Source of the DNA: Malus domestica
Lineage: Eukaryota > Streptophyta > Magnoliopsida > Rosales > Rosaceae
Assembly: GCF_042453785.1 (NCBI RefSeq)
Contig: NC_091669.1
Coordinates: 8,940,501 to 9,004,500, forward strand
DNA length: 64,000 bases
Direction: 5' to 3'
The notes under the pieces are model-generated. The model saw nothing but the letters and a program-made list of their open reading frames with translations, was not told where the DNA came from and ran no database searches. Below are positions 21,004 through 60,631 of this stretch, piece after piece. The translations under genes were made by a program, and so were the position numbers. The first letter of the stretch is position 1. Every line of letters starts with the position of its first letter.

Positions 21004-24000
21004 TTCTGGTAAATTGTTTTCATTCCGCTGCGTATCTTTTGTGCCTTTATTGTTTGTGATTTTGTTCAATGACTCAATATAATCATAGTGTTGTTATGCA
21101 TCTTGGTGGAACAAATAAATTGATACTGGGCCCACTGATCATGTAACTAGTGACCCTAGAATGTTTGATGAGTTATGTGACTATGTTCGTGATCTGTATA
21201 TTACTAGTGCAAATAGAGCATCTTCCCCTGTGAAAGGTGAATGCACTATTTCCCTGACTCCAACCTCATCATTGGTCCGTGCTTTACTTGTTCCTAATGT
21301 TAAGTGCAATCTTTTGTCGGTAAGAAAACTTCTTGACACCTTATATTGTTCTGCTCACTTCTACCCTACGTATTGTTATTTTCAAGACATTCAAACTCAG
21401 AAGATAATTGGTCGTGGTAAAATAATAGGGGGTTTGTACATCCTGACTATGAAGGATACTGTTGTTTCCGGTTCAAATACTCATCAAGTTTTAAGTGCTA
21501 AAACGGATGACAGACATCAAATTTGGTTGTGGCATCGACGATTGGGACATCCATCATTCAGTTATATAAAGCATCTATTTCCTTCTTTGTTTCACAGTCA
21601 TGGCTAAGAGTCATCGTGCTTCATTTTCCGTAAGTGATTCTAAAGCTACTTTGTCATTTGATTTGATACATTTTGATGTGTGGGGTCCGGCAAAAGTTAC
21701 TTCTAATGGATTCCGTTAGTTTGTTGCTTTTATTGGTGATTGTACTCGGTTAACTTGAGTGTTCTTGATGAAGAATAAGAGTGATGTTCCGTTACTTCTT
21801 CAAGAATTTTGTACAATGATGTATACTCAGTTTCATACCAAAGTTAAGGTCTTCAGGTTTGATAATGGAGGAGAATATGTAAATCACACTTCGGCATGTT
21901 TTTTTCGTGATCATGGTATTATTCACCAGACAATTACTCTGTTTACACCCCAACAAAATGGTGTGTCCGAACAGAAGAATCTTCAAATAATGGAGGTTGC
22001 TCGCTCCTTGATGTTGGATAAATGTGTTCCTAATCATTTGTGGGGTCATGCTATTTTTGCTGCTGTGTATTTGATCAATCATGTTCCAAGTAGGGTTCTT
22101 GATTTTCAGACACCGCTTGATGTGCTACAAAAACATGTTTATCTTGTTTATGTATCAAAGCTTCCTCCGAAAGTGTTTGGGTGTATTGCATATGTGCATG
22201 TCTACTCTCATCAGCGAAGTAAACTTGATGCATGTGCTCTCCGATGTGTCTTTATTGGGTATGCTAACAATAAAAAATGCTATAAGTGTTATCATCCTCC
22301 GACTCAAAAAACTTATATTACCATGGATGTCACTTTCCACGAGGAAGTTTTGTATTTTGTGAAGCCTTCTTCCGACTCTCCACTTCAGGGCGAGATGGGG
22401 AGTGAAGTGCAGATTCGAAAAGATGGTATGAATGATGTGTTACAGGCAGAATTGAGAACATAACCTATTATGTTGCGTGATACTGATCAGTCGGCTACAG
22501 ATAATGATCGGTCACCTGTCATTCCCGGAACTATTTCTACTGACGACAGATCAGATGTGCCCAACGAGTTGCCTAGTATGTCTGACGAATTACATTCTGA
22601 TGATCGGTTGCCTGCTGCTGATATGTCTAACGAGTTACCTGATGATAATGATTCTTCTAACAGTTTGGTACAAGATAGTGGCATACCTAAGGTAAATTAT
22701 GACGATTCTTCTACTTATCAGTTGCTTCTACGAGCTAATCGTGGAAAACCTAAAGTACAATATGAGCATGATATGCATGCCAAAGCCAAATATCCTATTA
22801 ATAATTATGTGTCTACTCATCGCTTGTCCAAACCATATGCATCTTACATATGTCAGCTGTCTAGTGTATCAATTCCAACAAAAGTGCAATATGCTTTGTC
22901 TGACCCTAAGTGAGTTAATGTCATAATAGTTAAGATGGAAGCTTTGGAAAAGAATTCTACTTGGGATTTAGTTCCTTTACCAAACGGGAAAAAAGTTGTT
23001 GGATGTAGATGGGTGTTTACTATTAAGCACAAAGCAGATAATTCTATTGACCGGTATAAAGCCAGATTAGTTGCCAAGGGTTATACTCAAACCTATGGGA
23101 TGGACTATATCAGGAGACTTTTGCTCATGTTGCCAAACTTAATACTGTGCGTGTTCTTCTGTCCTTAGCAGTAAACCAGGATTGGCCTTTGTTGCAATTT
23201 GATGTTAAGAATGCTTTCCTTCATGGTGATCTTAAGGAGGAAGTTTATATGGATCTCCCACCTGGTATTGGAACATCTCCTGAAAAAGGTGTATGCAAGT
23301 TACGAAAGGTTTTGTATGGTTTGAAACAATTTCCTAGAGCGTGGTTTGAGAGGTTTACAAGTTAAATGAAGAAGTTTGGGTATATCCAGAGTCATTCAGA
23401 TCATACTTTGTTTCTAAAGCGACAAAATGGTAAGCTAACTACATTGATTATTTATGTTGATGACATGATAGTGACTGGTGATGATCAGAAGGAGATACAA
23501 CGCCTTCAAAGTACCTAGCTACTAAATTTGAGATGAAAGAATTGGGTGAATTGAAGTATTTTCTGGGAATCGAGGTTGCACGATCCAAACATGGTATTTT
23601 TCTATCTCAACGGAAGTATGTTCTTGATTTGTTAGTTGAAACATGTATGTTAGATTGCAAACATGTTGATACTCCGATTAAGCAGAATCATCGTCTATGC
23701 TTATTTCCAGATCAAGTTTCTACTCATAAGGAATGGTATTAGAGGCATGTGGGGAGATTAATTTATTTGTCACACATCGCCTTGACATTGCTTATGCAAT
23801 TAGTGTGGTAAGTCAGTTTATGCACTCACGTACTGAAGCTCATATGGATGCAGTAACTCGTATTTTGAGGTACTTAAAGATGACTTCTGGCAGATGCTTG
23901 GTTTTCTCCAAGAATGGTCATTTGAACGTCGAAGGGTATACAGATATAGATTGGGCAGGTTCTATCACTGATCGGTGATCTACATTTGGATACTTTACGT

Positions 24001-28097: not shown

Positions 28098-29995
28098 AAT
28101 ACTATTTGGTCCAGCACCAAAACTAACCAAACAAGAACTAAAAGTGATAATTTCACTCTTTTACTATCGCTATACGTTTTTGTTTAACCATATTTGTTGT
28201 TTATGTTTGATTTATTTAGTCCAATAATCAGAAATAAGAATGGTGCGTAGGAGAAAAATAATGTGCGGTTATCATCTTTCTAATTTTAAACTAAATTGCG
28301 AGAAAGAATATTTGAACCTGAATGTAGATAATAAAACACACTGCTTTAGCCAACTTGACTACACTCGAGTTTGCAAAGATTATAATAGGTTTGATTGTAT
28401 AGTTTCAAAAGGTAAAAACAAAGTTGAGAGATGCATGTGTTGTAGGAAATGATGAATAGTGTAGTGTGGGTGGTTATGTTGCTTGGGATTGAAGGTTTGG
28501 TAATGCATGGAATAATTGAGATTGAAAAGATCCAAGCCATATAAATGGAGGACATGTGGGGGTCCAAAGCCAAAGCAAACCTCAGGGATTTTGATTTCCG
28601 TGAAGAATCAACTTTTGCCATAGAGGGGATGCCCTTCTTTGTTTTCTTCCCTTGAAACAACCAAGCACTTGAACCCAAAAACTAACTAATCATTATTATT
28701 CTTCGTTTTGAGAGACTTTTTAATATGTTCAGAATACAAGCAATACATCGTATGTTCTTAAACAAGTGGAGGGAAATTATTGTGTTCCAACACTTGTATA
28801 ATGATATATGATATATGTATCTATGTTCTGGACATTCTGAAAAATCTATCATTCCTTTTATTGAGAAAAAAATTAATTCAAGTATATCACAATTCTTTCA
28901 TGAAAGATGGGTTTCTTAAATTAATGACACGATTATTTACTAGGAATTTGAATTAATCTGATTTTGAGTAAAATATAGATATTGAAATTATATACTATTT
29001 GGTCCAGCACCAAATCTAACCCAGCATGTGGAATATAAGGCTTCTATTATTGCGAAAAATAATAGGTTTTTAATTCAAGTGATATTTTAACTTAATTAAG
29101 AAAAGTGATCATTTCACTCTTTTACTATCATTATACGTTTTTGTTTAACCATATTTGTTATTTATGTTTAATTTATTCAGTTCAAATAACCAGAAATAAG
29201 AATGGTGTGTAGAAGGAGAAAAATGATGTGCGGTTATCATCTTTCTGATTTAAACTAAATTGCGAGAAAGAAGATTTGAATTTAAATGTAGATAATAAAA
29301 CACATTACTTTAGCCAACTTGACTACGCTCAAGTTTGGAAAGATTGTAATAGGTTTGATTGTGTAGTTTCAAAAGGAAAAACCAAAGTTGAGAAAGGCTT
29401 GCGTTTGTAGGAAATGATAAGAATAGTGTAGTGTGGGTGGTTATGTTGCTTTGGGATTGAAGGTTTAGTAATGTATGGAATAATTGAGATTGAAAAGATC
29501 AAGTCTCTTTTTACCAAAAAGGAAAAGATCAAGTCTAATAAATGGAGGACATGTGGGGGTCCAAAGCCAAAACAAATCTCAGGCATTTTGATTTCTGTGA
29601 AGAATCAACTTTTCCCATAGAGTGGATGCCCTTCTTTGTTTTCTTCCCTTGAAACAACCAAACACTTGAAGCCAAAAACTAACTAATCATTATTATTCTT
29701 CGTTTTGAGATACTTTTGAATGTGTCCAGAACACAGGCTAAGTCACATGTTCTTATACAAATAGAGGAAAGTTTTTTTCTTTTTTCAAGTGTCCCTTGAC
29801 TTGTATAATGACATAATATATGTGCCTGTGTTCCGAACACCATGAAAAACCTATCCTTCCTTTTATTGAAAAAAAAAGTAATTCAAGTATACCACAATTC
29901 TTTCATGAAAGATGGTGTTATTAAAGTAATGACACGTTTATTTACTTGAAATTTAAATTAATCTGATTTTGAGTAAAATATAGATATTGAAATTA
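28098..29995. repeat. ~0.9-kb tandem duplication
   Basis: Both units begin ACTATTTGGTCCAGCACCAAA (28103 and 29006). They share long blocks such as GAATGGTG(C/T)GTAG, CAACTTGACTAC(A/G)CTC, GGAGGACATGTGGGGGTCCA and CTTCCCTTGAAACAACCAA. Each continues about 250 bp past the last block (ATGAAAGATGG). Unit 2 has small insertions, including a duplicated AAAAGATCAAGTCT. The short open frames inside do not stay open in both copies, so I see no gene here. Confidence 0.85.
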
Positions 29996-30264
29996 TATAC
30001 ATTTACTATTTACTAATACATACAATACAAAATACCAAAAACATGTTATATGATTGTCACACTACAATCCAAAATCTAATACTTAAAAGACTAGGAATCA
30101 ATTTATTATGTGATATTAGAGGAATATTTTTGTTCACCACCATCAATTGATGACAATGCTCACAAACCCTATTTATCACCATTGAACAAGTTTGAATTTC
30201 GAGATCCGTGTAATAGATAAATACAAAACTCAAAATTTAAACTAATCAAACAATAAAAAGTAGA

Positions 30265-35885: not shown

Positions 35886-37154
35886 TTCGAGCTATGGGGA
35901 GGTCATGTGGGATTGCAGAAGAAGAGGATGGTAAAGTTTGGGACTTTTGCCGGTTTTCAGAGATATGGGGATTGAAGGGGGTTGATTGGTAGGGGGGAAG
36001 CGTGAGTCGACTCGGCGAGTTGGTGAACGTGGTCATTGGAGAGCCATAACCAGCAGCTTACTGGAGGTGGAGGGAAGTGGAGAGAAAGGTTACGCTGTTG
36101 AGTAAAAACTAGGGTTCTTTCACTCGGAGACGGAAAAAGAGGGAAATATAACAGAAAGGCCAAATTGCAGTAATAGTTTCATAGTTTACATGAGCTTTCA
36201 CTTTCATCCCTATACAAATTCTTACATTTTCATCTTTGTTGTTTTGATCTATTTTGACCTTAGTTTGGCCCCGCTAATTAAATTAGTTTTTCGGTCTAAG
36301 TTTGTGCACATCTTCTCATTTAACAAAAAATTTATCATTTGAAAAACTAGTGTACGATGATGTCGAAAATGAAAAACATAAATATCTAGCATATAGCAAC
36401 CTATTACGAACGATTATTGCGATAATATTTTTCTTGAATATTAAGAATGAAAAAGAAGATTAACAGGCATATGACAAAAAACATTGTCGAAAATATTTGG
36501 GTCCCTCAATTCTCTAATAGGTAGTCTTGTAATCATGTATGGTAACTCTAGATATTATCTTCACTTGCTACTAATGAGAGAACATGAGGAGTGTACCTGC
36601 GAAAGACACTCTAACACTCAAGTTAGTGAGTCTTTAAGATGATTGTTGTAAGATTTAGAATAATTGGTACCTTTTCCCTTTTAATAGGTGAGTTACCTTT
36701 ACATTTGAAGTATTGAGCTCCAAGTTCATGTTCGTTAATTTTCTTTATAATCCACTAATAACTCTATCATAAACACAAAGTGGTCACATAACAAATTACT
36801 GACTTGATCGTAGCTCCACTTCCCTATAGAGTGCACATACCTTATTTGGTTGAGTAAAATATGCTCCCATGTTCCTTAACCCACAAACACGTAATCCATC
36901 ATGAGTAGGTAGCAATTAACAAAAGAAAAGAAATAACAATAGGCATTTGACGGATTTGACCAACGGTGTTAACTTAATGAAATTACATAGGATGAAAATG
37001 TAAGAACAAAAATACAAGGACGAAATTAAAAACCGAGATAAACTACAGGACTATTAGTGCAATTTAGTTGTGGTTATACATGGGCCACTCAGACGGTCAG
37101 ACCCCTTGGTTGTGGTTATCATCTGATCCACCAACGCCATTGCAGGTTGCAGCA
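35886..37154. promoter_or_regulatory. Divergent intergenic region between the two PPR genes
   Basis: This 1.27-kb region must contain both promoters and leaders. The first ~280 bp upstream of the minus-strand gene are GC-richer and pyrimidine-rich on the coding strand, as expected of a leader. No clear TATA box was recognised for either gene. No further gene is seen. Confidence 0.5.
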
Positions 37155-39215
37155 ATGCTTCAGCTCACACCATCTCTCTCTCTCCTCCACAAACCATTTC
37201 TCTCTCCTCAAACCCTAAACCCCTTCTCGCTTCTCCAAACATGCAAAACCCTACAAGAAGCAGAGCAGCACCACGCCCTGTTCCTCAAGACCGGAACTTT
37301 CAGCCACCCTTCAGTCGCCTCCTGCTTCCTTTCTCTCTACGCCGACCCCAAAATCAACAACCTCGACTACGCCCGCTCCGTCTTCGACCAAATCGAACAA
37401 CCCTCGTTGGTGTCTTGGAACGTCCTCATCAAATGCTACGTCGGAAACCAGCGGTCGCATGATGCCATTGTTTTGTTCTATGAATTGGTTCATGAGCTTG
37501 TTCCCGATCATTTCACTGTGCCGTGCGTGATTAAGGGTTGCGCTCGGTTGAATGCGATTGAGGAAGGGAAGCAGATTCATGGATTGGTGTTGAAAATTGG
37601 GCTGGGGTTGGATAAGTTTGTGCAGAGCAGTTTGGTAAGTTTGTACTCGAAATGTGGTGAGATTGGTTTGGCTCGGAAGGTGTTTGATGAAATGCGTGAC
37701 CGAGATTTGGTAACTTGGAATTCGTTGGTGGATGGGTATGCGAGGTGTGGAGAAGTAGAAGTGGCAATGGAGTTGTTTGATCAAATGCAGGAGAGGGATT
37801 TGTTTTCTTGGACTGTTTTGGTCGATGGGTTGTCGAAATGCGGGAAGGTGGAGATGGCTAGGGAGGTGTTTGATAGGATGCCAAATAGAAATTCGGTTTC
37901 TTGGAATGCCATGATTAATGGGTACATGAAAGCTGGAGAGGTTGAGACGGCTCGTCAATTATTTAGTGGGATGCCGGCAAGAGATGTAATAACTTGGAAT
38001 TCAATGATTGCAGGTTATGAATTTAATGGGAGGTTTATGGAAGCATTGGAGTTGTTTCAAGAAATTTTGAAAGAAGATGTCATGCCTAGTCATGCTACAT
38101 TGGTCAGTGCTCTTTCAGCCGTTTCGGGATTAGCTATCCTGAGTAAGGGGAGATGGATTCATTCTTTCATGGTAAAACATGGATTTGAGTTAGATGGCGT
38201 GCTTGGTACATCCTTGATTGATATGTATTCCAAGTGTGGGAGCATTGAGAATGCTCTGACCGTATTTCGAGCTATACACAGGAAGAAATTAGGGCATTGG
38301 ACTTCTATAATTGTCGGTTTAGGAATGCATGGTATGGCTGACCAAGTTCTTGAGCTATTTCTCGAGATGCGGAAGAATGGAATGCAGCCTCATGCTATAA
38401 CTTTTATTGGAGTCTTGAATGCATGTAGTCATGCCGGATTGGTCGATCTTGGCCGTTTCTATTTCAATCTGATGACAAATGATTATGGAATTGAACCCAC
38501 AATTGAACACTACGGTTGCTTTGTAGACATTTTATGTCGGGCTGGCTGTCTGGATGAGGCGAAGAATGTCATTGAAAGTATGCCCATGAAACCAAACAAA
38601 GTAATCTGGATGAGTTTGCTCAGTGGTGCTCGGAATCATGGAAATGTTGAACTTGGCGATTATGCTGCTCGTCACCTGATTGAAGTGTCTCCCGACACTA
38701 TTGGATGCTATGTTGTTCTTTCTAACATGTATGCTGCTGCTGATCAGTGGGAGAAAGTTTCACAGGTAAGAGAAATGATGAGAATGAGAGGAGTCAAAAA
38801 GGACCCGGGATGCAGTTCCATAGAGCACAGAGGTGTGCTTCATGAGTTTATTGTGGGTGATAAATCACACCCTCGGACAGAAGAGATATATTCGAAGTTG
38901 AGTGAGATGAGAGAGAAACTGAAATCTGTAGGACATGTTCCTGACACAAGCCAAGTTCTGTTGTGTCTTGAAGAGGAAAAAGAGAAGGAAGCTGAACTGG
39001 AAAACCATAGTGAAAGATTGGCTATTGCATTTGGTCTCATTAATTCGGAAGCTGGGAGTCCTATTCGCATTATAAAGAATCTTCGTGTCTGTAGCGATTG
39101 CCACTCTGTCACTAAACACCTATCCAGTATCTATAATCGTGAGATTATTGTGAGAGATAATAGTCGTTTCCATCATTTCAGAAATGGCTCATGTTCTTGC
39201 AAAGATTTTTGGTGA
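37155..39215 (+). CDS. PLS-class PPR protein with E and DYW domains
   Basis: This is an intronless frame of 686 residues from the ATG at 37155. An in-frame ATG at 37080 would add 25 residues, but the 37155 start gives a better organelle transit peptide (MLQLTPSLSLLHKPF). Alternating P, L and S PPR motifs (e.g. LVTWNSLVDGYARCGEVEVA) are followed by E/E+ motifs and a DYW cytidine-deaminase domain. That domain contains the zinc/catalytic HSERLA, CSDCHSVTKHLS and HHFRNGSCSC. The final tripeptide is DFW instead of DYW. These proteins edit specific cytidines to uridine in chloroplast or mitochondrial RNA: the PPR tract selects the site and the DYW domain deaminates. All deaminase residues visible are kept, so it should be active. 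The target site is unknown. Confidence 0.94.
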   Translation: MLQLTPSLSLLHKPFLSPQTLNPFSLLQTCKTLQEAEQHHALFLKTGTFSHPSVASCFLSLYADPKINNLDYARSVFDQIEQPSLVSWNVLIKCYVGNQRSHDAIVLFYELVHELVPDHFTVPCVIKGCARLNAIEEGKQIHGLVLKIGLGLDKFVQSSLVSLYSKCGEIGLARKVFDEMRDRDLVTWNSLVDGYARCGEVEVAMELFDQMQERDLFSWTVLVDGLSKCGKVEMAREVFDRMPNRNSVSWNAMINGYMKAGEVETARQLFSGMPARDVITWNSMIAGYEFNGRFMEALELFQEILKEDVMPSHATLVSALSAVSGLAILSKGRWIHSFMVKHGFELDGVLGTSLIDMYSKCGSIENALTVFRAIHRKKLGHWTSIIVGLGMHGMADQVLELFLEMRKNGMQPHAITFIGVLNACSHAGLVDLGRFYFNLMTNDYGIEPTIEHYGCFVDILCRAGCLDEAKNVIESMPMKPNKVIWMSLLSGARNHGNVELGDYAARHLIEVSPDTIGCYVVLSNMYAAADQWEKVSQVREMMRMRGVKKDPGCSSIEHRGVLHEFIVGDKSHPRTEEIYSKLSEMREKLKSVGHVPDTSQVLLCLEEEKEKEAELENHSERLAIAFGLINSEAGSPIRIIKNLRVCSDCHSVTKHLSSIYNREIIVRDNSRFHHFRNGSCSCKDFW

Positions 39216-40606: not shown

Positions 40607-41711
40607 TCACTTTCCAGGGACGAAGTTGGTGGCGTAAGCCCATGCGTTGTTGGCCACTGGGTCAGCGATGTGGTCGAAGAGGTTCTCCACCGGTCCCTTT
40701 CCAGTTACAATAGCCTGAACAAAGAATCCGAACATTGAGGTCATAGCCAGACGCCCGTTCTTAAGTTCCTTCACCTTCAGTTCAGCAAAAGCTTCGGGAT
40801 CATCAGCAAGTCCAAGGGGGTCAAAGGCCCCTCCTGGGTAAAGTGGGTCTAGTCCTTCACCGAGTGGTCCTCCTCCAACTCTGTATCCCTCAATGAATCC
40901 CATGAGCACGACCTGGACAGCCCAGATTGCCAAGATGCTCTGAGCATGGATAAGGTTTGGGTTGCCAAGGTAGTCAAGGCCGCCCTCAGAGAAGATTTGC
41001 GATCCAGCCTTGAACCAGACAGCCTCGCCGAACTTGACGCCATTCCTTGACAAGATTTCTGGGAAGACGCATCCCAGTGCACCAAGCATGGCCCATCTGG
41101 AGTGGATCACCTCAAGCTCACGGTTCTTGGCAAATGTCTCGGGGTCTGCAGATAGTCCAGCAGTGTCCCATCCGTAGTCTCCGGGGAATTCACCGGTCAA
41201 GTATGACGGAGTTTGCTCGGAGAATGGTCCCAAGTACTTGGGGCGGTCTGGGCCGTACCTGTTTTGTCAGTTACAATGTAAACTTCTCAATGGTATATGA
41301 TCATGTTGTTCTTGTAACAATGTTGCTATACATTGAGCTAAAATTTATCGTGTATATCATAAGCATGTCCGCTCATAAGCGCTTCTGTTAGAAGTGCTTT
41401 TATTATAAACATGTACAAGTCTTTGTTTAAAATCCAAGTGCTTTCCTACGAAGCACATAGCAGGTACTTCTCCAGAAAGCATTTATATTCACGCATGGGA
41501 ATTTTAGTAGAGTTGCTTGGAAAGAAAGATAGGTTATGCTGACATACTAGAGCCAAGGTACTTACCATATGCTCTGGGGGGCACTTTTGACGGTGCGCCG
41601 CATGGAGAAGCGGCCGCCGCCAAGGCCGCCGATCTTTCGGACGAGCTCATTGGACTGCTTCAAAGCAGTCTGGCCAGCAAATGCTGATTGTTGGATTGCA
41701 GAGGTTGCCAT
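40607..41711 (-). CDS. LHCB2: Chlorophyll a/b-binding protein of LHCII type II (LHCB2)
   Basis: There are two exons, 41711-41566 and 41258-40607 (donor ATATG|GTAAG, acceptor AACAG|GTACGG), with a 307-bp intron. They join to 266 codons, giving 265 residues, the standard LHCB2 length with the single intron after SIW. Residues 1-37 are the chloroplast transit peptide. The mature protein starts RRTVKS, whose Thr (residue 40) is the site phosphorylated by STN7 in state transitions. Helix B ([21 protein letters not shown]) and helix C (ELKNGRLAM) carry the chlorophyll-binding Glu/Arg/Asn ligands. [14 protein letters not shown], needed for trimerisation, is present. One oddity is [11 protein letters not shown], where LHCII normally has Phe: residue 222 is Thr, codon ACC at 40741-40739. 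It is an antenna protein of photosystem II in the thylakoid membrane. Confidence 0.97.
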
Positions 41712-41796
41712 TGCTTGCTGCTTTTTTTCTGTTTGAAGTTTTGGTGGTGTTGAGCAAGCCTGCTGAGATGCTTTCAACCAGGGAGAGGTCAGGGAT

Positions 41797-41929
41797 GTTA
41801 TAACGGGGAGTTGAAGATGATGTGGATTAGGATATGTACACGTCAGCGGCATCCTATTGGTTATCAAATAGATTTGGATTTCCAATCTGATTGTCGTAGA
41901 GAGTGAGAGGTTCTCCCTTTGCCACGTGG
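41797..41929 (-). promoter_or_regulatory. LHCB2 light-type promoter
   Basis: Reading toward the gene there is a perfect palindromic G-box CCACGTGG (41922-41929), a GATAA I-box core (41861-41865), an adjoining CCAAT box (41856-41860), TGACGTGT (41837-41844) and a TATA-like TTATAAC (41797-41803) about 90 bp before the start codon. G-box plus I-box is the classic arrangement of light-regulated photosynthesis genes. Confidence 0.7.
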
Positions 41930-42055
41930 CAGACAGATGCTGCAATCTTTGTGGTTGGTGAACACAGGCCACAAGTTGACCAAAAGACAAATGTTTCGCA
42001 GGTCCACGGGTAAAATCATAAAATTACCTTGTGTTTTTGCTGGCTTGAGGTGAAA

Positions 42056-42777: not shown

Positions 42778-43160
42778 TTGTTGTAAACTAAACCAAAAAC
42801 CAATCAAGCAATAAACAAAATACAACGATTTCAAAGTCTCTCCAATATAGGAGTACCTCTTTAACAATGGAAGCTTTATTGATTACCAACAAATACAAGA
42901 GAACTCACAAACACAAAGTGTTCTCAAGTATACATACTTATGCCTCCCACAACTTTCACACACAAAACTCTATCACGCATCCATCTATTTATACTAATAG
43001 ATGTCATAGGTTTACATAAAGTCTATAGAATATAGGAAACCAAATCTTATAGTAAAATCAAATCCCAAACCAACTAGGAAACACAAATCCAAATATCTTG
43101 CGTCCAAGATATCCTAATCCTTTTTAGATTAGGCATGTTGATTTAATGCCAAATCCAATA
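42778..43160 (-). mobile_element. Solo LTR
   Basis: These 383 bp are absent from the otherwise matching duplicate at 54592 and are flanked by GTTTG on both sides (42773-42777 and 43161-43165). On the minus strand it starts TATTGGATTTGGCATTAAAT, has a TATA box (GTATAAATAGATGG near 42990) and the polyadenylation-type AATCAATAAAGC. It ends near ACAACAAC, the layout of an LTR. It inserted after the segmental duplication. The terminal dinucleotides are not perfect TG/CA, so borders may be off by a few bases. Confidence 0.7.
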
Positions 43161-43189
43161 GTTTGTTTACTGTATTTAGTATTTGCAGC

Positions 43190-46100
43190 TCAATGGATAT
43201 ACAATGCGAGAGGAGAAATTTCTGGGCGGAAACAGTATGATGATACAGACAAGATGAGGAACAAACAAATGGGAACGTATAATCTGCGCTGCAGATGTGA
43301 GAATCCAGCGTGTGAGCTCACCATCAGTGCCGAAGTTGTTCTTTGGAGGTGTGCTGAAAGGAATTTGAATGCCCGAACAGAACCCCACGAAAGAGCAGCA
43401 AGAACCCAACAAATTAGCCACTGCAATGCATTCAACCTCACACAGCTGGCTAGTCCTTTTCCAAACTCAACAATGATCACCTGGATGATCAAAACAGCCG
43501 CCAACGCCATCAAAAACCAATGGCTGCGGAGGACAACAACTAGCACTTCCTTTTTTACTATGTTCATGGCACTGAACAGATTAAGGACCTGGCATAAGGT
43601 GAAAGTATTGAAAATCATGGTATTCCGGACACCTTCGTTCATGCTCGGTACTACATTTCCCATGAAATGTAAGATCAGCAAAATGGAAGCCTGGTACAAA
43701 ACTTGAACTGCTATGTTTCCCCAGATGACTTTGGTTATAAGCGACTCGGTCCTCTTAGCAAGTCTTTGAGTGTGTCGTTCAGTGCCTTGTAACTCCATCA
43801 CCATCATTAGGCCACCAAGAAGGCACATGATCAAGTTCACCCAAATCAAGTGAACTGTTGTTAGTGGGGACTCTCCCGAATGCATTGTTACGACTAGGGT
43901 CACTAGTAGCCCGGATATGCAAGTGGTGAGTTGAAGTTGAGAGAACTGCTGAATGTTATGGTAAGCACAAGCACCGGACTTCATATTCATGCTTAAGAAA
44001 TATCCATTTTTGATTATAAGATCGGCGTTCTCTCTGGCCATCTTGGTGCTCCAGAGATTCTCTACAATTCCTACATCAGCTCCTTTTAAGGTCAGAGCGT
44101 CACTGCTGGTTAGCCCTCCATAAAATCCAACTATGTGACCTTTTTTCTTTAACTGCTCCACCATGAGAAACTTGTCTTTGGGGAGAGAACTTCCCATCAC
44201 AGAGATCAAATCCACCTTATCCCGCCATTCCACGGAATTGAGCCTTCAGAAATCTTGACCTTCAATTTCTGTGAAATCTGAGTCAAGGGAGATCCCAAGC
44301 TCCAAAGCTCTAGCTCTCACTTTCGAGAGCTCATCATCCTACACCAGTTTGATCCTTACTCCAGCTTCTCTAAGAGCCTTCATGTCCAATTTAAGTTCTT
44401 CTTGATATGGACATCTAAGACCGACAAGTGCCAACAAAATCAAACCATATTCTGTAGGATATTTGGCTTCTGTTTTCTTGTACGCGTATGCAATCGGTCT
44501 AAGACCCTTCTTCTCCATCTTCTCGATCACCTGCTTGAATTTTCTCTTCTGGTATCCAATATTGTGACTTTCCCCTCTATCATCATAGTAATGTGAACAC
44601 ATGCCTAGTAATGTTGATGCTTCTCCGTCACAGTGAAGTTGCATAATCTGTTCATCATTCTCGATTTTCCTCAATACAACTCCTCTATACTTCTCATTAG
44701 AGCTCCATTGTTCAACAATTTCAAATCTTCGATCCAATAACTTCGCGTTACTACCCCATCTGGTGTTCAGCCAAGAAATGAGCCGATCATTTTCTGGTGA
44801 CGTGGTAGCTGAAATCCCCTGATGGAGAGCCTCAAGAACTTGGTCAGTTTCCGAGTCCACTTCACCATTGCTTAAATCTTTTTCGCCGATCCGAAATTCC
44901 TCGACCTCCGTCCGGTTGCACGTTAGATCTGCCGTTGTTTCAATGCAGATGAAATTTATGAGTCCCATGGTGACAGAAGCTGATAGATTCCGTGGATCTG
45001 CCTGATTTTTTGCCGCATTTTCCTTCCATTGAAAAAGGGCAACTGCAATCACAAAAGGCATCCCATGTTGTATCCCTATTACCACGGTTGTGAGAACGCT
45101 TGCTAAGATGGAAACTTTTCCTTGAGGTTCCAAGGAGATCTTCTCAAAGATCCTCATCACAAAATTCATTGAAACTTTCCCTTTCAGCTCTGGTCTCTCA
45201 TTGTAGTTTTCATGCTTCCTGAAGAATAGTAGGCGTATCAACATCCCAACCGCAATCAGTATTGAGACACCACATGCAAGATAATCCATACAATCATTCG
45301 GTTTGTCCATCAAATCTTGTAGCAGTGTCTTTTCCTTTGGATTATGATCAGACAACGAGCTCAGCACCTTAGCAAAAGATGTATTAGCACCAATGGATGT
45401 CACAATCATGCGGCCATGGCCCTTCACAACCTTTGAACCCGAAAAAACAAATGGATTTTGTTCGCAATCAATTTTTGGGCTCAATACCTCATCCAGAACC
45501 AGTACCTCACCGTGATTTATGAACAAACCATCAGTAGGAACACAGTCTCATTCCTTCAAAGGAACTATATCACCCACCACAATGCCAGATATGGTAATCG
45601 GTGTAGGTTCTGTGCTACTTCTTTCAACATTCACCGTCAATTTGCTCCTATCCAGCAAGTGTTTTGCCAGCTTTCTCTAACGGAGGTAGTTCCCACAGAA
45701 CGGAAAGCAATAAGTAAGAATGCGGCAATGAGTATGGCAACACCGTCATGCTAGCCATCCTTAACTCCTTGATTCATGAATTCGATGGTGAACGATAACC
45801 AAGCTGAGAGCAAGAGGAAAAAAATTGTGTACTGATTGAACGCCTCAAACAAAAAGTACAAGAAACCTTTGGCATCAACAGGGGACTTGGTAATGTTCCA
45901 TCCTTCTGGATTTTGACCACCATCAATGGCACATTCTTGAGATTAAATCTTGAATATAATCAACTGAAGTACAATCATTCTCGACCATGTACAAGATTAT
46001 AGAAAAAGTGGTTATTTTCTACAGGGTTGCTTGCTACTTTAAAATGAGACCTGAGAAGTGGCAAGATGCCCTCAACACCACCAAGTCTGCAGAGTGAGTT

Positions 46101-46389
46101 CAAGTCCTTCTCCCTCACTATTTCAGCAACCTTTTTCGAAAACCGTTCCTGGAGAGGGATGTCAATCACATGGTCAGAGGCAGTGGCTGGCAGCGTTGGT
46201 GCTGCTGCTAAAGGTTTAGAACTAGCTTCAAGCAGACGTCTGGTTTTCTTAATGCGTGATGAGAACAAAATGCCTAGAACAACATATCTCAGCGAGGTTC
46301 CCCTGCGTCTGATGGTCTGTATAATCAAGCCGGCAGTAAGATTGGCACCTTCAGCAGCTTTGATCCTCTGTATTTATCTCGAAGGCCGT
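43190..46389 (-). pseudogene. Plasma-membrane Ca2+-ATPase-like (ACA12/13 family) pseudogene, copy 1
   Basis: Translated pieces align along the full length of the homologue at 54.6 kb and of P2B autoinhibited Ca2+-ATPases. The pieces are an N-terminal domain (46328-45975), actuator/M3/M4/P-N domain (45526-44339) and the C-terminal hinge with M5-M10 (44233-43190). The position of the start codon reads ACG (46389-46387). A one-base insertion follows within ~30 bp (GCAGCTTTGATC versus GCAGCTTGATC). More frameshifts occur near 45950, 45750, 45530 and 44240-44340. It carries the same catalytic losses as copy 2 wherever aligned: ICIETTADLTCN for the phosphorylation site, IQHGMP for PEGLP, and NLIMCLL for the M6 Ca2+ ligand motif. 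It also ends without the usual promoter. The gene is dead. Confidence 0.92.
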
Positions 46390-46604
46390 GTTTCCTTGTG
46401 CCACAAGAAAATTAGAGAGATGATTAGACAAGAAATTGAGAAAATTTGATCCGTTGGCGTGGATTTGCAGTTAATGAGACGTTTAAAACAAGATTGGTAA
46501 GACTCATTCCCCTATGTTAGATCTTGTAAGTAATGAGCATAGCTAATAAGAGGATTATGTACGTCTCTTTTTTTTCCCTTCATATTCACGCTTTATAAGC
46601 AAAC

Positions 46605-51965: not shown

Positions 51966-53083
51966 ATTTTTTTCTTTTTTAATAAACAATATAGAAAAGT
52001 GGATTAAGTTTTATAGTGGTGTGGTTTAAATTTATTTTTTACGATAATTGAATTTAAGATCTTTAATTTATAAATGAAGAAAAATATCATCAAACCGTGA
52101 TGTTAATGGTTAATAAATTTTTTTTAAAATAAAATAATAACTTAGAGGATGTGTTTTTTGGTCCAAATAAGAGAGAGGGGCTATGGCTATGTCTTCTCTC
52201 CTATTTGGTAAAAAGGCAAACGACCATTCTAACCATATTAAAACTAAAGAAAAATAACTAAAGTAAAAGTTATGGGTTAAACACACACAAAACAATTTTG
52301 TTTTGTTTTTTCTCTCCCTCCTTTCTATAACTTCCAACCAGTTAAAAACAAATCACTACTCTCATTAAAAAATAAAAACATATATTTCTCTCACACACAG
52401 TGTATGGTTTTTACTAGTATATTATTACACAAAATATGTTTGGTCACTCAAAGGTAAGTAGGAATTCTTACTGAAAAATTTTCGTGTTCGAATCACAAAG
52501 TTTTGTGTTTATGATCAAAACCGTTTATATTATGAATCATTTTATAAAGACAATATATGCAAAAAAATGAATTAAATTTAAGATCGTTTAGTCAATCTAT
52601 TTTAACAAATACAAAGACAGCTCGTAATGCTTCTATTAATTTTGTTCATTTATTTTTATACATTTCGATGACCAAACAACCTTATATTTAATTGATTTTT
52701 TGTAGAGGCAATCTTTATATTGTGTTTTATAATATGAACGGTTTTGATTATAAATACAAAATTCTATAAATTGGAAACAAATAATTTTGAGTAAGAACTC
52801 ATACTCATCTTTTAAGTAACCAAATTTTGTTCTTCTACTATTCAACAACACATTATGTTACCTCATTAGTAACCGCTAATAAAACGCCATTGTTTATATT
52901 TTTGTTCTTGGGTCGTCAAGTAAATAACAAAGTTTCCTATTCTATTCTTTGTAAAAGTAAAATGAGTAGACGGTTGGGCGAACACGTTGTAATAATTTTC
53001 ATTCGATGAAACACCAGGTGTCATATGTGATCGGAACGTGGAAAAAAATTATCGTCGCACACGTGGCAGGCAAATGGTGCTAG
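51966..53083. other. Intergenic AT-rich sequence
   Basis: No gene is seen. At 52840-52940 the phrases CATTGTTTATATTTTTG and GGGTCGTCAAGTA recur at 62.6 kb, so part of this is repeated DNA. Confidence 0.4.
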
Positions 53084-53826: not shown

Positions 53827-53927
53827 CTATAAGCTGCAATGTTTGTGGTTGGTGAACATAGGCCACAAGTTGACCAAAAGACAAATACTTGACAGGTCCA
53901 CGGCAATGTATAATGGAAAATGATCCT

Positions 53928-54120: not shown

Positions 54121-54318
54121 AATTTATAATACACGTTGTGGAATGTAAAAGGCGAATGTGGTCCACTTAAAAAGGAAATGTGTCGTCGGACTCTTTGAAC
54201 TCTTCATTCCTTGCTGTAAACCAGTTTGTAATGCTGCAGTAGTTTTTGACAAAACAGTAAAAATAATAGCAGGCCAGAAGTAGGTTGCAGTGGAAGAAGA
54301 GCATTCAAATTTACTTGA

Positions 54319-54413
54319 CCTATGTAACTCAAATGGTTAAAGGGGTTTACTTTACACCTGTGGTCCTGTGTTCGAATTCACCCTCACTAATATCGCTTGT
54401 ATCAAAAAACAAC
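54319..54413 (+). repeat. tRNA-derived SINE-like unit, duplicate
   Basis: This is the partner of 42503-42598: AACTCAAATGGTTAAAGGG, then GTCCTGTGTTCGAATTCACC and TAATATCGCTTGTATC with an A-rich end. Confidence 0.55.
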
Positions 54414-54619: not shown

Positions 54620-57600
54620 TTAACGGATATACAACGCGAGTGGAGAAATTTCCGAGCGGATACAGTATAATGATACAGAGAAGATGAGGAACAACCAAGT
54701 GGGAACGTAAAACCAAATGGGAATGTATAATCTGCGCTGCCGATGTGAGAATCCAACGTGTGAGCTCACCATCAGTGCCGAAGTTGTTCTTTGGAGGTGT
54801 GCTGAAAGGAATTTGAAGGCCCGAACAGAACCCCACGAAAGAGCTGCAAGAACGCAACATAATAGCCACTGCAGTGCATTCAACCTCACACAGCTGGCTA
54901 GTCCTTTTCCAAACTCAACAATGATCACCTGGATGATCAAAACAGCCGCCAACGCCATCAGAAACCAATGGCTTCGGAGGACAACAACTAGCACTTCCTT
55001 TTTTAATATGTCCATGGTATTGAACATATTAAGGACCTGGCATAAGGTGAAAGTATTGAAAATCATGGTATTCCGGACGCCTTCATTCATGCTCGGTACT
55101 GTGTTTCCCATGCAATGTAAGATCAGCAAGACGGAAGCCTGATATGAAACCTGAACTGCTATGTTTTTCCAGATGACTTTGGTTATAAGTGACTCAGTCC
55201 TCTTAGCAGGTCTTTGAGTGTGTCGTTCGGTACCTTGTAACTCCATCGCCATCATTGGGCCACCAAGAAGGCACATTATCAAGTTCACGCAAATCAAGTG
55301 AACTGCTGTTAACGGGGACTCTCCCAAATGCATCGTTGCGACTAGGGTTACCAGTAACCCCGATATGCAAGCGGTGAGCTGAAGTTGAGAGAACTGCTGA
55401 ATGTTGTGGTAAGCACAAGCACCAGACTTCATATTCATGCTTAAGAAACATCCGTTTCTAATTATAAGATCGGCGTTCTCTCTGGCCATCTCGGTGCTCC
55501 AGAGATCCTCAACAATTCCTATATCAGCTTCTTTTAAGGTCAAGGTGTCACTGATGGTTAGCCCTCCATAGAATGCAACTATGTGACCTTTTTTCTTTAA
55601 CCGCTCCACCATGAGAAACTTGTCCTTGGGGAGGGAACTTCCCATCACAGAGATCAAATCCACCTTATCCAGCCTTTCCATGGAATTGAGCCTTCGGAAA
55701 GCTTCACCTTCAATCTCTGTGTCATCTGAGCCAGGGGAGATCCCAAGCTCCGAAGCTCTAGCTTTCACTTTAGAGAGCTCATCCTCCGACACCAGTTTGA
55801 TGCTTACTCCAGCTTTTCTAAGAGCCTCCACTGCCAATTTAAGCTTTTCTTGATATGGACATCTAAGACCGACAAGTGCCAACAAAATCAACCCATCTTC
55901 TGTAGGATCTTCGGCTTCTGTTTTCTTGTATGCGTATGCAATCGGTGTAAGACCCTTCTTCTCCATTTTCTTGATCACCTCTTCAAATTTTCTCTTCTGG
56001 TTTCCAATATTGTGACTTTCCCCTCTGTTATCATAGTAATGTGAACACATGCCTAATATTGTTGATGCTTTTCCGTCGCAGTGAAGTTGCATAATCTGCT
56101 CATCATTCTCGATTTTCCTCACTAAGACCCCTCTATATTTCTCATTAGAGCTCCATTGTCTCTGCTCAACAGTTTCAAATCTTTGGTTAACTAACACGGC
56201 ATTACTACCCCATCTGGTGTTCAGCCAAGAAATGAGCCGATCATTTGCTGGTGATGCGGTAGCTGAGATCCCCTGATGGAGAGCCTCAAGAACTTGGTCA
56301 GTTTCCGAGTCCACTTCACCACTGCTTAAATCCTTTTCGCCGATCCAAAATTCCTTGACCTCCGTTTGGTTGCACATTAGATCTGCCGTTGTTTCAATGC
56401 AGATAACTGTTATGAGTCCCATGGTGACAGAAGCTGATAAATCCTGTGGATCTGCCTGATTTTCGGCCGCCTTCTCCTTCCATTGAAAAAGGGCAACTGT
56501 AATTACAACATGCATCCCATGCTGTATCCCTATTACCACAGTTGCGAGAACGCTTGCTAAGATGGAAATCTTTCCTTGAGGTTTCAAGAAGATATTCTCA
56601 AAGATCCTCATCACAAAATTCATTGAAACTTCACCTTTCAGGTCTGGCCTCTCGTTGTAGTTTTCGTACTTCTTGAAGAATAATAGGCGTATCAACATCA
56701 CAAGCGCAATCAGTATCGAGACACAACATGCAAGAAAATCCATACAAGCATTCGGTTTGTCCATCAAAGCTTGTAGCAGTGTTTTTTCCATTGGATTATG
56801 ATCAGACACCAAGCTCAGCATCTCGGCAATAGCTGTATTAGCACCAACTGATGTCACAATCATGCGGCCGTGGCCCTTAACAACCTTTGAACCCGAAAAA
56901 ACAAATGGATTTTGCTCACAATCAATTTTCGAGCTCAATAACTCATCCACCACCAGTTCCTCACCGTGATCTATGAACAAACCGTCAACAAGAACACGGT
57001 CTCCTTCCTTCAAATGAACTATATCACCCACCATAACGCCAGATATGGTAATCGGTGTAGGTTCTGTGGTACTTCTTTCGACATTCACCATCAGTTTGCT
57101 CCTATCCAGCAAGTGCTTCTGCGCTGACTTTCTCTGATTGCGGTAGTTCTGCACTGAAGGGAAAACAATAAGTAAGAACGTGGTGATGAGTATGGCAACA
57201 CCGTCATGCCAGCCATCCTTGACTCCTTGCTTCATGAATTCGATGGCGAACGAAAACCCGGCTGAGAGCAAGAGGAAAAAAATTGTGTACTGATTGCACG
57301 CCTCAAACAAAAAGTACAAGAAACCTTTTGCTTCAACTGGGGACTTGGTAATGTTCCATCCTTCTGGATTTTGACCACCATCAACGGCACCTTCCTGTGA
57401 TTAAATATTCGAATATAATCAAATGAAGTACAATATTCTCGATCAAGTACAAGATTATGGAAAAAGCGGTTATTTTCTACAGGGTTGCATGCTACCTCAA
57501 AGTGAGACCTGAGAAGTGGCAAGATGCCCTCAACACCACCATGTCCCCGGAGTGAGTTCAAGTCCTTCTCTCTCACAATTCGAGCAACCTTGTTCGAAAA

Positions 57601-57846
57601 CCGTTCCTGAAGAGGGATGTCAATCACATGGTCAGAGGCAGTGGTTGGTGGCACTGGTGCTGCTGCTAAAGGTTCATAACTAGCTTCACGCAGACGTCTG
57701 GTTTTCTTAATGCGTGATGAGAACAAAATGCCTAGAACAACATATCTCAGCGAGGTTCCCCTTCGTCCGATGGTCTGCATAATCAAGCCGGCAGTAAGAG
57801 AGGCACCTTCAGCAGCTTGATCCTCCGTATTTATCTCGAGGGCCAT
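54620..57846 (-). CDS. Catalytically degenerate plasma-membrane Ca2+-ATPase homologue (ACA12/13-like pseudo-pump), copy 2
   Basis: Exon 1 is 57846-57451 (start MALEINTED). A proposed 56-bp GT-AG intron (57450-57395) leads to exon 2, 57394-54620. The product is 1056 residues, the normal ACA length. Membrane segments remain: M1/M2 (168-183, 198-213), M3/M4 (349-372, 408-435) and a C-terminal set from about 808. Catalytic motifs do not. Actuator TGES lies in a 6-residue deletion (VDELLSSKIDCEQNP). The DKTGTLT site is ETTADLM, with Glu466 (codon 56395-56393) for the phosphorylated Asp. KGAxE is DGKAS (572-576). The TGD hinge is SED (668-670). GDGTNDAP is GGLTISDT (about 742-749). M4 PEGLP is QHGMH. 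The M6 Ca2+-ligand Asp is Cys840. It cannot form a phosphoenzyme by the known mechanism. The 925-codon second exon is uninterrupted. A regulatory or scaffold role, or a young pseudogene, are both possible. Confidence 0.75.
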
Positions 57847-57976
57847 GTTTCCTTGTGCCACAAGAAAATTAGAGAGATGATCCGACAAGAAATTGAGAAA
57901 ATTTGATCTCTTGCCGCAGATATGCAGCGAATGAGACGTTTAAGACAAGATTGGTATGACTTTTTCCTCCATGTTA

Positions 57977-60322
57977 TCTGACACGCCCCGACCCTGATAC
58001 TCCCCGAATACCAGGATAGACATGTGCTGGCCGACACCTGAGGGTGACGAAAGCCATTAATTGATACAAAAGCTAAGAATAAGAAATAAATAAGGGTTAT
58101 GAATTTAAAATACAATGAATTAATAATTTAGGAACGTGTTCAGAGCATACAACTAAACCTAATCACTAAAAAGAATTTAGATAAAATTTAATGAATAAAG
58201 AAGTGAGTCCTACATCGAAAGGATTCGAAGATGCTGCTGCGGAAGTGCCTTCACGCCGGGATTAGGTGCCTTGATTCTAAGTCCTGAATGGGGGCGCAAA
58301 ACAAAGATGAGTGGACCAAGTTCGTATATATATAATAATAATAAAACAGTTATCAAGATACTAACCCCCACAGTTTATATAATGAAAACTACTAGCATAA
58401 TAAGTGATGGATTTAATAAAAATCCTAGCATGCCAAATATCTCAAAAGTCATATCGCGGAAACGCATCGTGGAAATCAAAACAGTAAACGTATCATAAAT
58501 CGTCTCGTAAACGCGGTGTGCTGCTAGAAAGATCACTGAATAAATAATAACTCCCGGCCCAATGCCTGCACCTCAGTCTCTGTGCCCGTAGCTAGAGATA
58601 ACTCCCTCCCGGCCCAATGCCTGTCTCCGTGTCCCTCAGCCTTTCGTTAGGGATTATTTCTCCCGGCCTACATGCCAACACCAGATCCTCGCCCCAAGTG
58701 GCATAGTGTCTACTAGGTACGCACAAATATTTACGCATCTCATAAATAACCACTTCATAGTATAAAGTCATCCATCGTCTATACTATAAAGAGGGGTTTC
58801 TAAAACATGTTCTAGCATCCTATCGTCATCCATCGGATAGTCTATCAGTTCATGGTTTTTATAAAAAATACGATATATTAAAATATAGCACAAACTAGGC
58901 TAACAGTTTATTTCCTCACCAAAACACGAGACGAAATCAATAAATTTCTTAAACAGGCTTAACATAAATCAATTCATAAATTTGTAGGCATGCTAATCAT
59001 TTATGCATTTACTATAAAATCATGTAATTTTAGAAGGGGTCCACTCACAGTACTTAGTTGCCAAAAGCTGCGCCACTAGCGAAGACGGAAACGTCACAAT
59101 AATTGCCCCTAAGCACATAAAGAGTCCAATAAATAAAACTATATAATAGCAATTGAATTTTGGAAAACGGACATTGGAACCGGATTTAGAACGTCGAATT
59201 ACCCTAAGAAGGGTTCCGGACAAAAACCCGAAAAGTCAACCCTAAAGTCAACGTTGACCGGAGGTCAATGGTCAATTTAGGTCTAATGGGTTTTAGGCTT
59301 GAAATCCGGATTAGGGTTTAGGTTAAATAGGATTAGGATTTATTGGGTTTTAGAAACCTAGGGTTTTTGGGTTAAAAGGGTTTTAGGGTGAAAAGGCTTT
59401 AGGGTGAAGAAATGGGGTTTGGGCTTAAACCCAAACACACACACAGAGCACAAGGCCTTAGGCCTCACAAAAACAAACAGGGCTTTAGGCCCTTTGAATT
59501 AAACCGGCCCAAGGCCATTTTAAATAAGGCCCTAAACCTTTTGGGTCTTTAAAACAAATAACTAAAAATAAAAATCAAACGGGCTGGGATTTTGGGCTGA
59601 GGCAAAACGGGCTTAAGGCCCGTGGGGTTTTCTAAACGGCCTAAGAGGCCTGGTTTTGCCGAAGAAGAAGGCCGGAAAATTCGGCCGGAAAACTACCCAA
59701 CTTTAAACGGCCATAACTTTATCACTACTCAACGAAATCAAGCGAGACAAAAACGAAAGTTGTAGCCCTAGAAGAGACGAAGAGAATGGTACCTTAAAAG
59801 ACGTCTAAATCGCCTTTTTTGGGCAGAAAAATGCCTCGAAAGCCTCGGAGGTAGCCGGAAACTGGGTAAAATTCAAATGAGTATAACTTCTTCAATACTC
59901 AACGAAATTGAGTGAAACAAAAAGGAAACTTGTAGTACTCAGGGAGACGAAGAGATTAATACCTTTCAAGCAGGCCAACTCGCCGTGGTTTGGCCGGAAA
60001 TGGCCTCGAAAGTCAGCGGAGTCGTCGGGGGGAACTTGGGTGTTCTCTGGGTGTCCCGGAGCTTCGCCGAGACGGGGGAGAGAGAAGAAAGTTCCAGAGA
60101 TGATGGTGGTGTCGTCTTCGTTGATGTGGTGTGGAAGTGAGGGTGTGTGGTTTTGGTTCACAGGGAGAAGGAGAGAGTGCTGAGAAAGAGCACAGGAGAG
60201 ATAGAGAAAAGAAGAGAGAGAGAGAGCGGGAAAACACACAAAAAAAAAAACAAGATGGGCCTCACGGGCTCACCAATTAAGAATTAAAACTATTTTTAAA
60301 ATAAAATGGGGTTAGGGTGTTT
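57977..60322. mobile_element. 2.35-kb repetitive insertion upstream of the pseudo-pump gene
   Basis: The other arm of the duplication runs straight across this point, so the sequence is an insertion. It is bordered by CATGTTA on both sides (57970-57976 and 60323-60329). Its ends are inverted: TCTGACACGCCCCGACCC at the left, and AAACACCCTAACCCC read from the right (TGACACGCCC / TGAAACACCC in LTR style). The interior has two CTCCCGGCCCAATGCCTG repeats (58551, 58605) and telomere-like TTAGGGTTTAGG patches (59290-59400). A GA-repeat at 60208-60226 sits beside leader-like DNA. It has no protein domains. It may be a large solo LTR or a Mutator-type element. Confidence 0.75.
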
Positions 60323-60631
60323 CATGTTAGATCTTGAGAAAATGAGTACGTACGAAATTAGACTCCTCCTCCTAACTGGTTGTGAGTAACGAGCATAGCT
60401 AGCTCGCAGTACTAGCACGAGATCATGACTGACAAAAACTAACTATGAAATGGTACTGAAAGCGATTTAGTGAGAGGGAGGGGGGGGGTTTGGAAACAGG
60501 ACATTGGGTGCAAGGGTAAGCGCTCTTAACAACTCGAGTTATAATGACTATGACTGCAATGCAAAGTTAGCTAGTGATCAAAGAAGGTTGAGGACTTGTG
60601 CAGTTGTTATGTGAAGTGGACGGTTTCAGTC

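Follow-up and report, generated by a model that had tools for sequence, protein, structure and literature searches.

The window analysed here, 64,000 nucleotides of Malus domestica DNA (C9:8940501-9004500; the genome searched spans 651 Mb over 19 contigs), carries on its minus strand a two-exon gene whose 1046-aa model product is homologous to P2B-type Ca2+-ATPases over its full length and lacks both the DKTGT phosphorylation motif and the TGES dephosphorylation loop. Our data suggest, with a probability of about 0.75, that this gene, hereafter the pseudo-pump, is protein-coding, that it has been under purifying selection since before the duplication separating its copies on contigs C9 and C17, and that its phosphorylation cycle cannot run. 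Catalytic motifs define P-type ATPases; if this reading is correct, a selected gene without them would represent a pump scaffold useful beyond pumping, and hence a testable plant pseudo-pump, comparable to the pseudokinases, alongside the Ca2+ signalling components in a fruit tree.

Motif losses and descent of the pseudo-pump

The gene was compared with eight open ACA12/13-like paralogues of the same genome (an ACA12/13 label that we presume) and with AtACA8 (Protein Data Bank (PDB) 8qmp). TGES, DKTGT, the KGA motif, TGDN, GDGTNDAP and NLIMD were present in 8/8 paralogues and PEGLP in 7/8 (L018 has PEGFP), and none of these strings occurs in either open gene of the lineage, the window copy or its relative on C17. 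In the window copy KGAAE has become DGKAS (for the other replacements, see Table 1). At the phosphorylation site, ETTAD or ETTAE replaces DKTGT across the three copies of the lineage, the third being a broken tandem copy in the same window (copy 1), and the Glu at the phospho-Asp place is encoded by GAA in each. The Ca2+ ligands of P2B pumps, which we take to be a Glu in M4 and an Asn and an Asp in M6, are also altered: His occupies the M4 place and Cys the M6 Asp place in all three copies, with the M6 Asn retained in the window copy, whereas the eight paralogues all carry the M4 Glu and the M6 Asp. The first-pass annotation had described the Asp-to-Glu change in DKTGT, the missing TGES and the Asp-to-Cys change of the M6 ligand, all of which hold against the eight open paralogues and AtACA8. 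Its broader claim, that every catalytic signature was lost, stands for the motif replacements and TGES but is slightly overstated, since all three copies hold on to four residues, namely the third-position Thr within DKTGT, the TGD Asp, the Lys of the P domain and, in GDGTNDAP, the second Asp.

The predicted fold is that of a P2-type ATPase, with A, P and N domains and a 10-helix membrane part. By sequence, the best solved relative is AtACA8 (E 1.5e-120), and the best match to the predicted fold is PMCA (PDB 9gsg), both of which carry the catalytic and Ca2+-site motifs replaced in the pseudo-pump. The Pfam E1-E2 ATPase and cation-ATPase C-terminal families scored above their cut-offs in the window copy; the P-domain hydrolase match was well under its cut-off (13.9 vs 26.4 bits) and was absent from C17 exon 2 at E<=1, and paralogue L017 additionally passes the cut-offs for the hydrolase, N-domain and N-terminal families. 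Exon 2 scored 389.8 bits against NCBIfam TIGR01517 (P2B PMCA-type), under the curated cut-off of 507.05, as compared with 1003.7 bits for L017. As regards the N-terminal calmodulin binding of autoinhibited ACAs, a basic hydrophobic stretch is present, with best helical moments of 0.33 and 0.40 versus 0.41-0.56 in three paralogues. The extra hydrophobic segment beyond M10 is modelled with low to moderate confidence as a helix (residues 893-923 of the model), and an 18-bp tandem repeat in this part of the coding tail (54693-54727) marks the site of a six-residue insertion absent from C17 and copy 1.

The exon 2 frame is open for 926 codons (54620..57400, minus strand), in agreement with the first-pass description of a full-length homologue with a long open exon. 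Splicing was inferred because the 86-nt length of the intron is not a multiple of three and the 84-nt C17 intron contains in-frame stops. Exon 1 matched only three places in the genome at E<=10: the window copy itself, copy 1 (85% identical) and the C17 gene (79%). No break was found at the place of this intron in the nine multi-exon ACA loci read, and its inheritance from ACA genes was rejected on that basis.

A tree was built from 19 sequences and 898 columns, with tblastn pieces joined to form the rows of the multi-exon ACA genes. In it the window and C17 genes joined the ACA12/13 clade (ultrafast bootstrap (UFBoot) 100), and their stem measures 1.7 changes per site. The approximately unbiased (AU) test rejected both a grouping with ACA8-type genes and a position outside ACA12/13 plus ACA8 (p 1e-43 and 3e-54, respectively), and was compatible with both inside-clade and sister placements. 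Judged by these placements, the gene is shown to descend from an ACA12/13-type P2B Ca2+-ATPase. The ACA12/13 paralogues are its nearest relatives in the tree, with the same domain order and a similar length (about 1030-1050 aa in seven of eight; L018 is shorter), but they are only 32-34% identical to it and consist of single open frames with intact motifs, whereas the pseudo-pump lineage has one intron and an added C-terminal segment. Synonymous divergence (dS) relative to the open ACAs has reached saturation and so gives no date for the lineage.

Homeologous copies and purifying selection

The genome search, whose counts are lower bounds, located at least three loci of the lineage at 82-100% identity: the window copy, copy 1 and the C17 gene (C17:9868845-9871580, with exon 1 at C17:9871662-9872033). 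The C17 gene model encodes 1035 aa without a stop, shares the intron position and terminates at the homologous codon. Because the window frame is 82% identical to this open frame, it is not a chance frame. A neighbouring frame (Table 1) has a counterpart close to the C17 gene, and stretches of the window between 37460 and 42015 can be aligned with DNA adjoining that gene; the window copy and the C17 gene are therefore homeologues. Since the two share their motif losses, these losses, by parsimony, predate the C9/C17 duplication. Values of dS between C9 and C17 were 0.177 for the neighbour frame and 0.195 for the pseudo-pump, and those of two ACA duplicate pairs were 0.148 (C3/C11) and 0.124 (C4/C12). 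All three contig pairs match Malus chromosome doublets in Table 2 of PMC3368713, which gives Prunus chromosome 3 and Fragaria chromosome 6 as the partners of MC9/MC17, while the C16/C15 ACA pair (L013/L014) is not among the Malus doublets in the available excerpt of that source.

Copy 1 has decayed, as the first-pass annotation proposed: it has four premature stops, two 1-nt exon frameshifts, a start codon changed from ATG to ACG and a splice acceptor changed from AG to AA. Its divergence from the window copy is about that between the window copy and C17 in several middle windows and is lower at the ends, a pattern that could reflect an older tandem duplication with gene conversion. Two short stretches behind the window copy (53833-53903 and 54233-54319) have matches in the C17 DNA that separates the neighbour genes from the pseudo-pump there, and the tandem duplication unit seems, from these matches, to have carried part of that C17-like flank.

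The ratio of nonsynonymous to synonymous divergence (dN/dS, omega) between the C9 and C17 genes was 0.509 (confidence interval (CI) 0.407-0.638; likelihood-ratio test (LRT) 30.3), and was similar without the C-terminal tail (0.478, 0.382-0.599) and in exon 2 alone (0.496, 0.386-0.637). A branch model over 1003 codons gave 0.41 for the window copy, 0.58 for C17 and 0.68 for copy 1, with LRTs against omega 1 of 16.8, 12.7 and 4.1. By region, omega was lowest in the P/N domains and M5-M10 (0.41-0.42). Furthermore, 8/8 coding indels between C9 and C17 are multiples of three, versus 3/24 in three neighbouring stretches (Fisher P 1.6e-5), one of which (41483..42015) overlaps the open frame of the neighbour gene; the intergenic stretch alone gave 3/20. 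Neutral simulation under a simple mutation model (2000 runs) with d=0.0975 produced 10.2 and 9.2 expected stops on the two branches and no stop-free run (0/2000), and with d=0.05 produced 5.6 and 5.0 expected stops, with 2 and 17 of 2000 runs stop-free.

Together, an omega below 1 after the loss of catalytic motifs, the in-frame indels and the open homeologue support the first-pass annotation in preferring a membrane pseudo-enzyme to a young pseudogene. That annotation had expected a frame of this length to break without selection, consistent with the simulated stops and the decay of copy 1; it had suggested looking for orthologues in other Rosaceae with the Glu at the Asp site, a residue that the open C17 homeologue shares within this genome, and had named a dN/dS near 1 as evidence against its view, where this genome gives 0.51 for the pair and 0.41 for the window-copy branch.

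Possible roles and alternative explanations

The Post-Albers cycle of P-type ATPases should not run without the phosphorylated Asp, TGES and charged ligands. Their loss from the pseudo-pump would thus abolish the pumping cycle and leave a large membrane scaffold, which the Glu at the phospho-Asp place may hold in one fixed conformation. A fold fixed in this way could pair with, or compete against, active ACA pumps or their regulators, and we tentatively favor such a role, as a non-catalytic membrane partner of pumps or regulators, though the odds are somewhat against it. The roles of regulator, dominant partner or Ca2+/calmodulin scaffold raised in the first-pass annotation are likewise conjectural. 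A bolder proposal, possible but rather doubtful, is that the gene belongs to an ancient line of plant P2B proteins that do not pump, about 33% identical to real pumps, in which the Glu and His/Cys substitutions lock the fold and make it a membrane regulator or metal-responsive sensor, a counterpart of the pseudokinases.

Several results weigh against the view of a selected, non-pumping protein. Giving each of the three branches its own ratio brought no improvement over a single ratio (2 delta lnL about 3.1, 2 df), so a difference among branches, and with it a stronger constraint on the intact copies than on broken copy 1, is not demonstrated. Five ACA12/13 duplicate pairs have lower omega (0.19-0.37), although of the three for which intervals were computed, two just overlap the pseudo-pump interval; the syntenic neighbour frame has 0.185. 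Only the P/N and M5-M10 regions are individually below 1, and omega in the C-terminal tail is 1.38 (55 codons, not significant). Sites that are invariant in 17 other ACA sequences differ between C9 and C17 no less often than the rest: amino-acid changes fell at 22/136 retained-invariant, 25/118 lost-invariant and 99/604 variable sites, no Fisher test reaching 0.05. These counts reject the idea that present constraint tracks the ancestral ACA conservation map; whatever selection is preserving here does not visibly coincide with the conservation pattern of the pumps. In addition, the fold was predicted from an input alignment of active-type relatives, and the ATG of the window copy has a 2.35-kb repeat about 130 bp upstream.

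This repeat bears on a possible alternative, one we hold to be distinctly less probable than even, in which the C17 homeologue does the work of the pseudo-pump, and the window copy is a redundant duplicate that was recently cut off when the inserted repeat split its promoter region. Because the repeat inserted so close upstream, C17 may be the main gene. The element is flanked by TGTTA on both sides (57972-57976, two bases before its TG, and 60325-60329), is absent from C17 and copy 1, and is dispersed (all 40 scored of 4231 first-look candidates matched, its own place included); moreover, the tandem sister has already broken. Yet the window-copy frame is intact, its branch has the lowest omega point estimate (0.41), and the 113 bp adjoining its ATG form a gap-free alignment with C17 at 88.5% identity. 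The longer genomic copies of the repeat are 82-94% identical.

Alternatively, the protein may have gained another membrane activity, such as a leak channel, lipid handling as suggested for TMEM94, or soft-metal binding through the M4 His and M6 Cys. We consider this improbable. The His and Cys common to all three copies, the departure of constraint from the ACA map and the example of TMEM94, which is reported to have a P-type-like fold, no detectable ATPase activity and a lipid-shaped density (PMC12134183), are consistent with such a gain; on the other hand, the M5 Cys is Ser in C17, and copy 1 has QHGMP rather than QHGMH in M4, so that a soft-metal, lipid or channel activity would be conjecture. 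It is very unlikely that the protein still works as an ATPase or transporter through a remodelled active site built on retained residues of what we presume to be HAD motifs II (Ser, in the two open genes), III (Lys) and IV (the second Asp), since DKTGT has lost its nucleophile Asp and the adjacent Lys, motif IV its first Asp, and TGES is missing altogether. Least probable of all is a pseudogene whose frame stayed open by chance: omega does exceed the values of the open ACA pairs and does not differ significantly from that of the copy 1 branch, but two separate lineages are open where 9-10 neutral stops are expected in each, and the simulation, the in-frame indels and an omega below 1 on both branches reject chance survival. 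Broken ACA pieces elsewhere are rich in stops (10 in C16:15076001-15077575 and 7 in C15:53235104-53235886), and gene fragment L019 still has GDGTNDAP, so that decayed pieces show the opposite pattern to the pseudo-pump.

Among known systems, human TMEM94 (ERMA) shares with the pseudo-pump a P-type-like fold, the absence of TGES and, in one study, undetected ATPase activity (PMC12134183), but has its own proposed phosphorylation Asp (D417); its role as an ATPase is disputed (PMC13322241). TMEM94 was not among the best 60 of 75 PDB sequences matched by the window protein. One survey (PMC3896382) reports DKTGT in 99.77% of identified P-type ATPases; the UniProt sequences in which it is altered likewise have no intact DKTGT, but are 22/9,634 sequences, described as single point mutations, whereas the pseudo-pump has lost several motifs and its selection has been measured. 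Plant pseudokinases such as ZED1 also retain a dead enzyme fold for another role, though the fold differs and ZED1 is tied to plant immunity (PMC6634424). A literature search combining "P-type ATPase" and "pseudoenzyme" returned 0 papers, and phrasings on the lack of DKTGT turned up one, PMC3896382. No title or abstract opening among those listed announced a degenerate plant P2B gene under selection, although such listings are partial and not proof of absence.

Coordinates and minor observations

Table 1. Positions in the window of the pseudo-pump gene, its altered motifs and related features.
Feature	Position	Strand	Remarks
Exon 1	57481..57846	-	122 codons from ATG; N-terminal cytosolic region including segment LRYVVLGILFSSRIKKTRRLR
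Intron	57395..57480	-	86 nt, GT-AG; splicing inferred from sequence
Exon 2	54620..57394	-	M1-M10 and A/P/N domains of P2B-type ATPase plus extra C-terminal hydrophobic segment; 924 aa + stop
Place of A-domain TGES loop (DELLSSKI)	56924..56947	-	TGES absent
M4 ion-site motif	56510..56524	-	QHGMH replaces PEGLP (Glu to His)
Phosphorylation motif	56381..56395	-	ETTAD replaces DKTGT (Asp to Glu)
TGDN place	55778..55789	-	SEDE; Asp retained
TGDGTNDAPAL region	55541..55570	-	YGGLTISDTL; first Asp lost, second Asp retained; GDGTNDAP replaced by GGLTISDTL
M6 ion-site motif	55271..55285	-	NLIMC replaces NLIMD (Asp to Cys)
Extra C-terminal hydrophobic segment beyond M10	54662..54730	-	Holds 18-bp tandem repeat
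Copy 1, broken tandem copy	43158..46519	-	Shares the lost motifs; M4 is QHGMP
Syntenic neighbour frame, PPR-type by eye	37068..39215	+	Homeologue C17:9863660-9865753, 95% identical
Dispersed repeat, solo-LTR-like (long terminal repeat) by its ends	57979..60324		2346 bp, TG...CA-bounded; about 130 bp upstream of ATG

Elsewhere in the genome, L014, L015 and L016 (C15:53220001-53248000) form an ACA12/13-like cluster with two open members and broken pieces. L018 (C15:53551001-53560000) is an open ACA12/13-like frame that starts about 95 alignment columns late, without the N-terminal region, and is the paralogue with PEGFP noted above. Rfam and tRNA scans of the window returned nothing, and one plant protein, run against viral_contigs, had no relative there. 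Within the window, 28140-29000 and 29101-30004 are neighbouring direct repeat units of about 0.9 kb with 85% identity, and 52439-52824 is about 70% identical to its reverse complement, possibly representing a small inverted-repeat element. Frames at 21119-22913 resemble, by eye, pieces of a copia-type retroelement.
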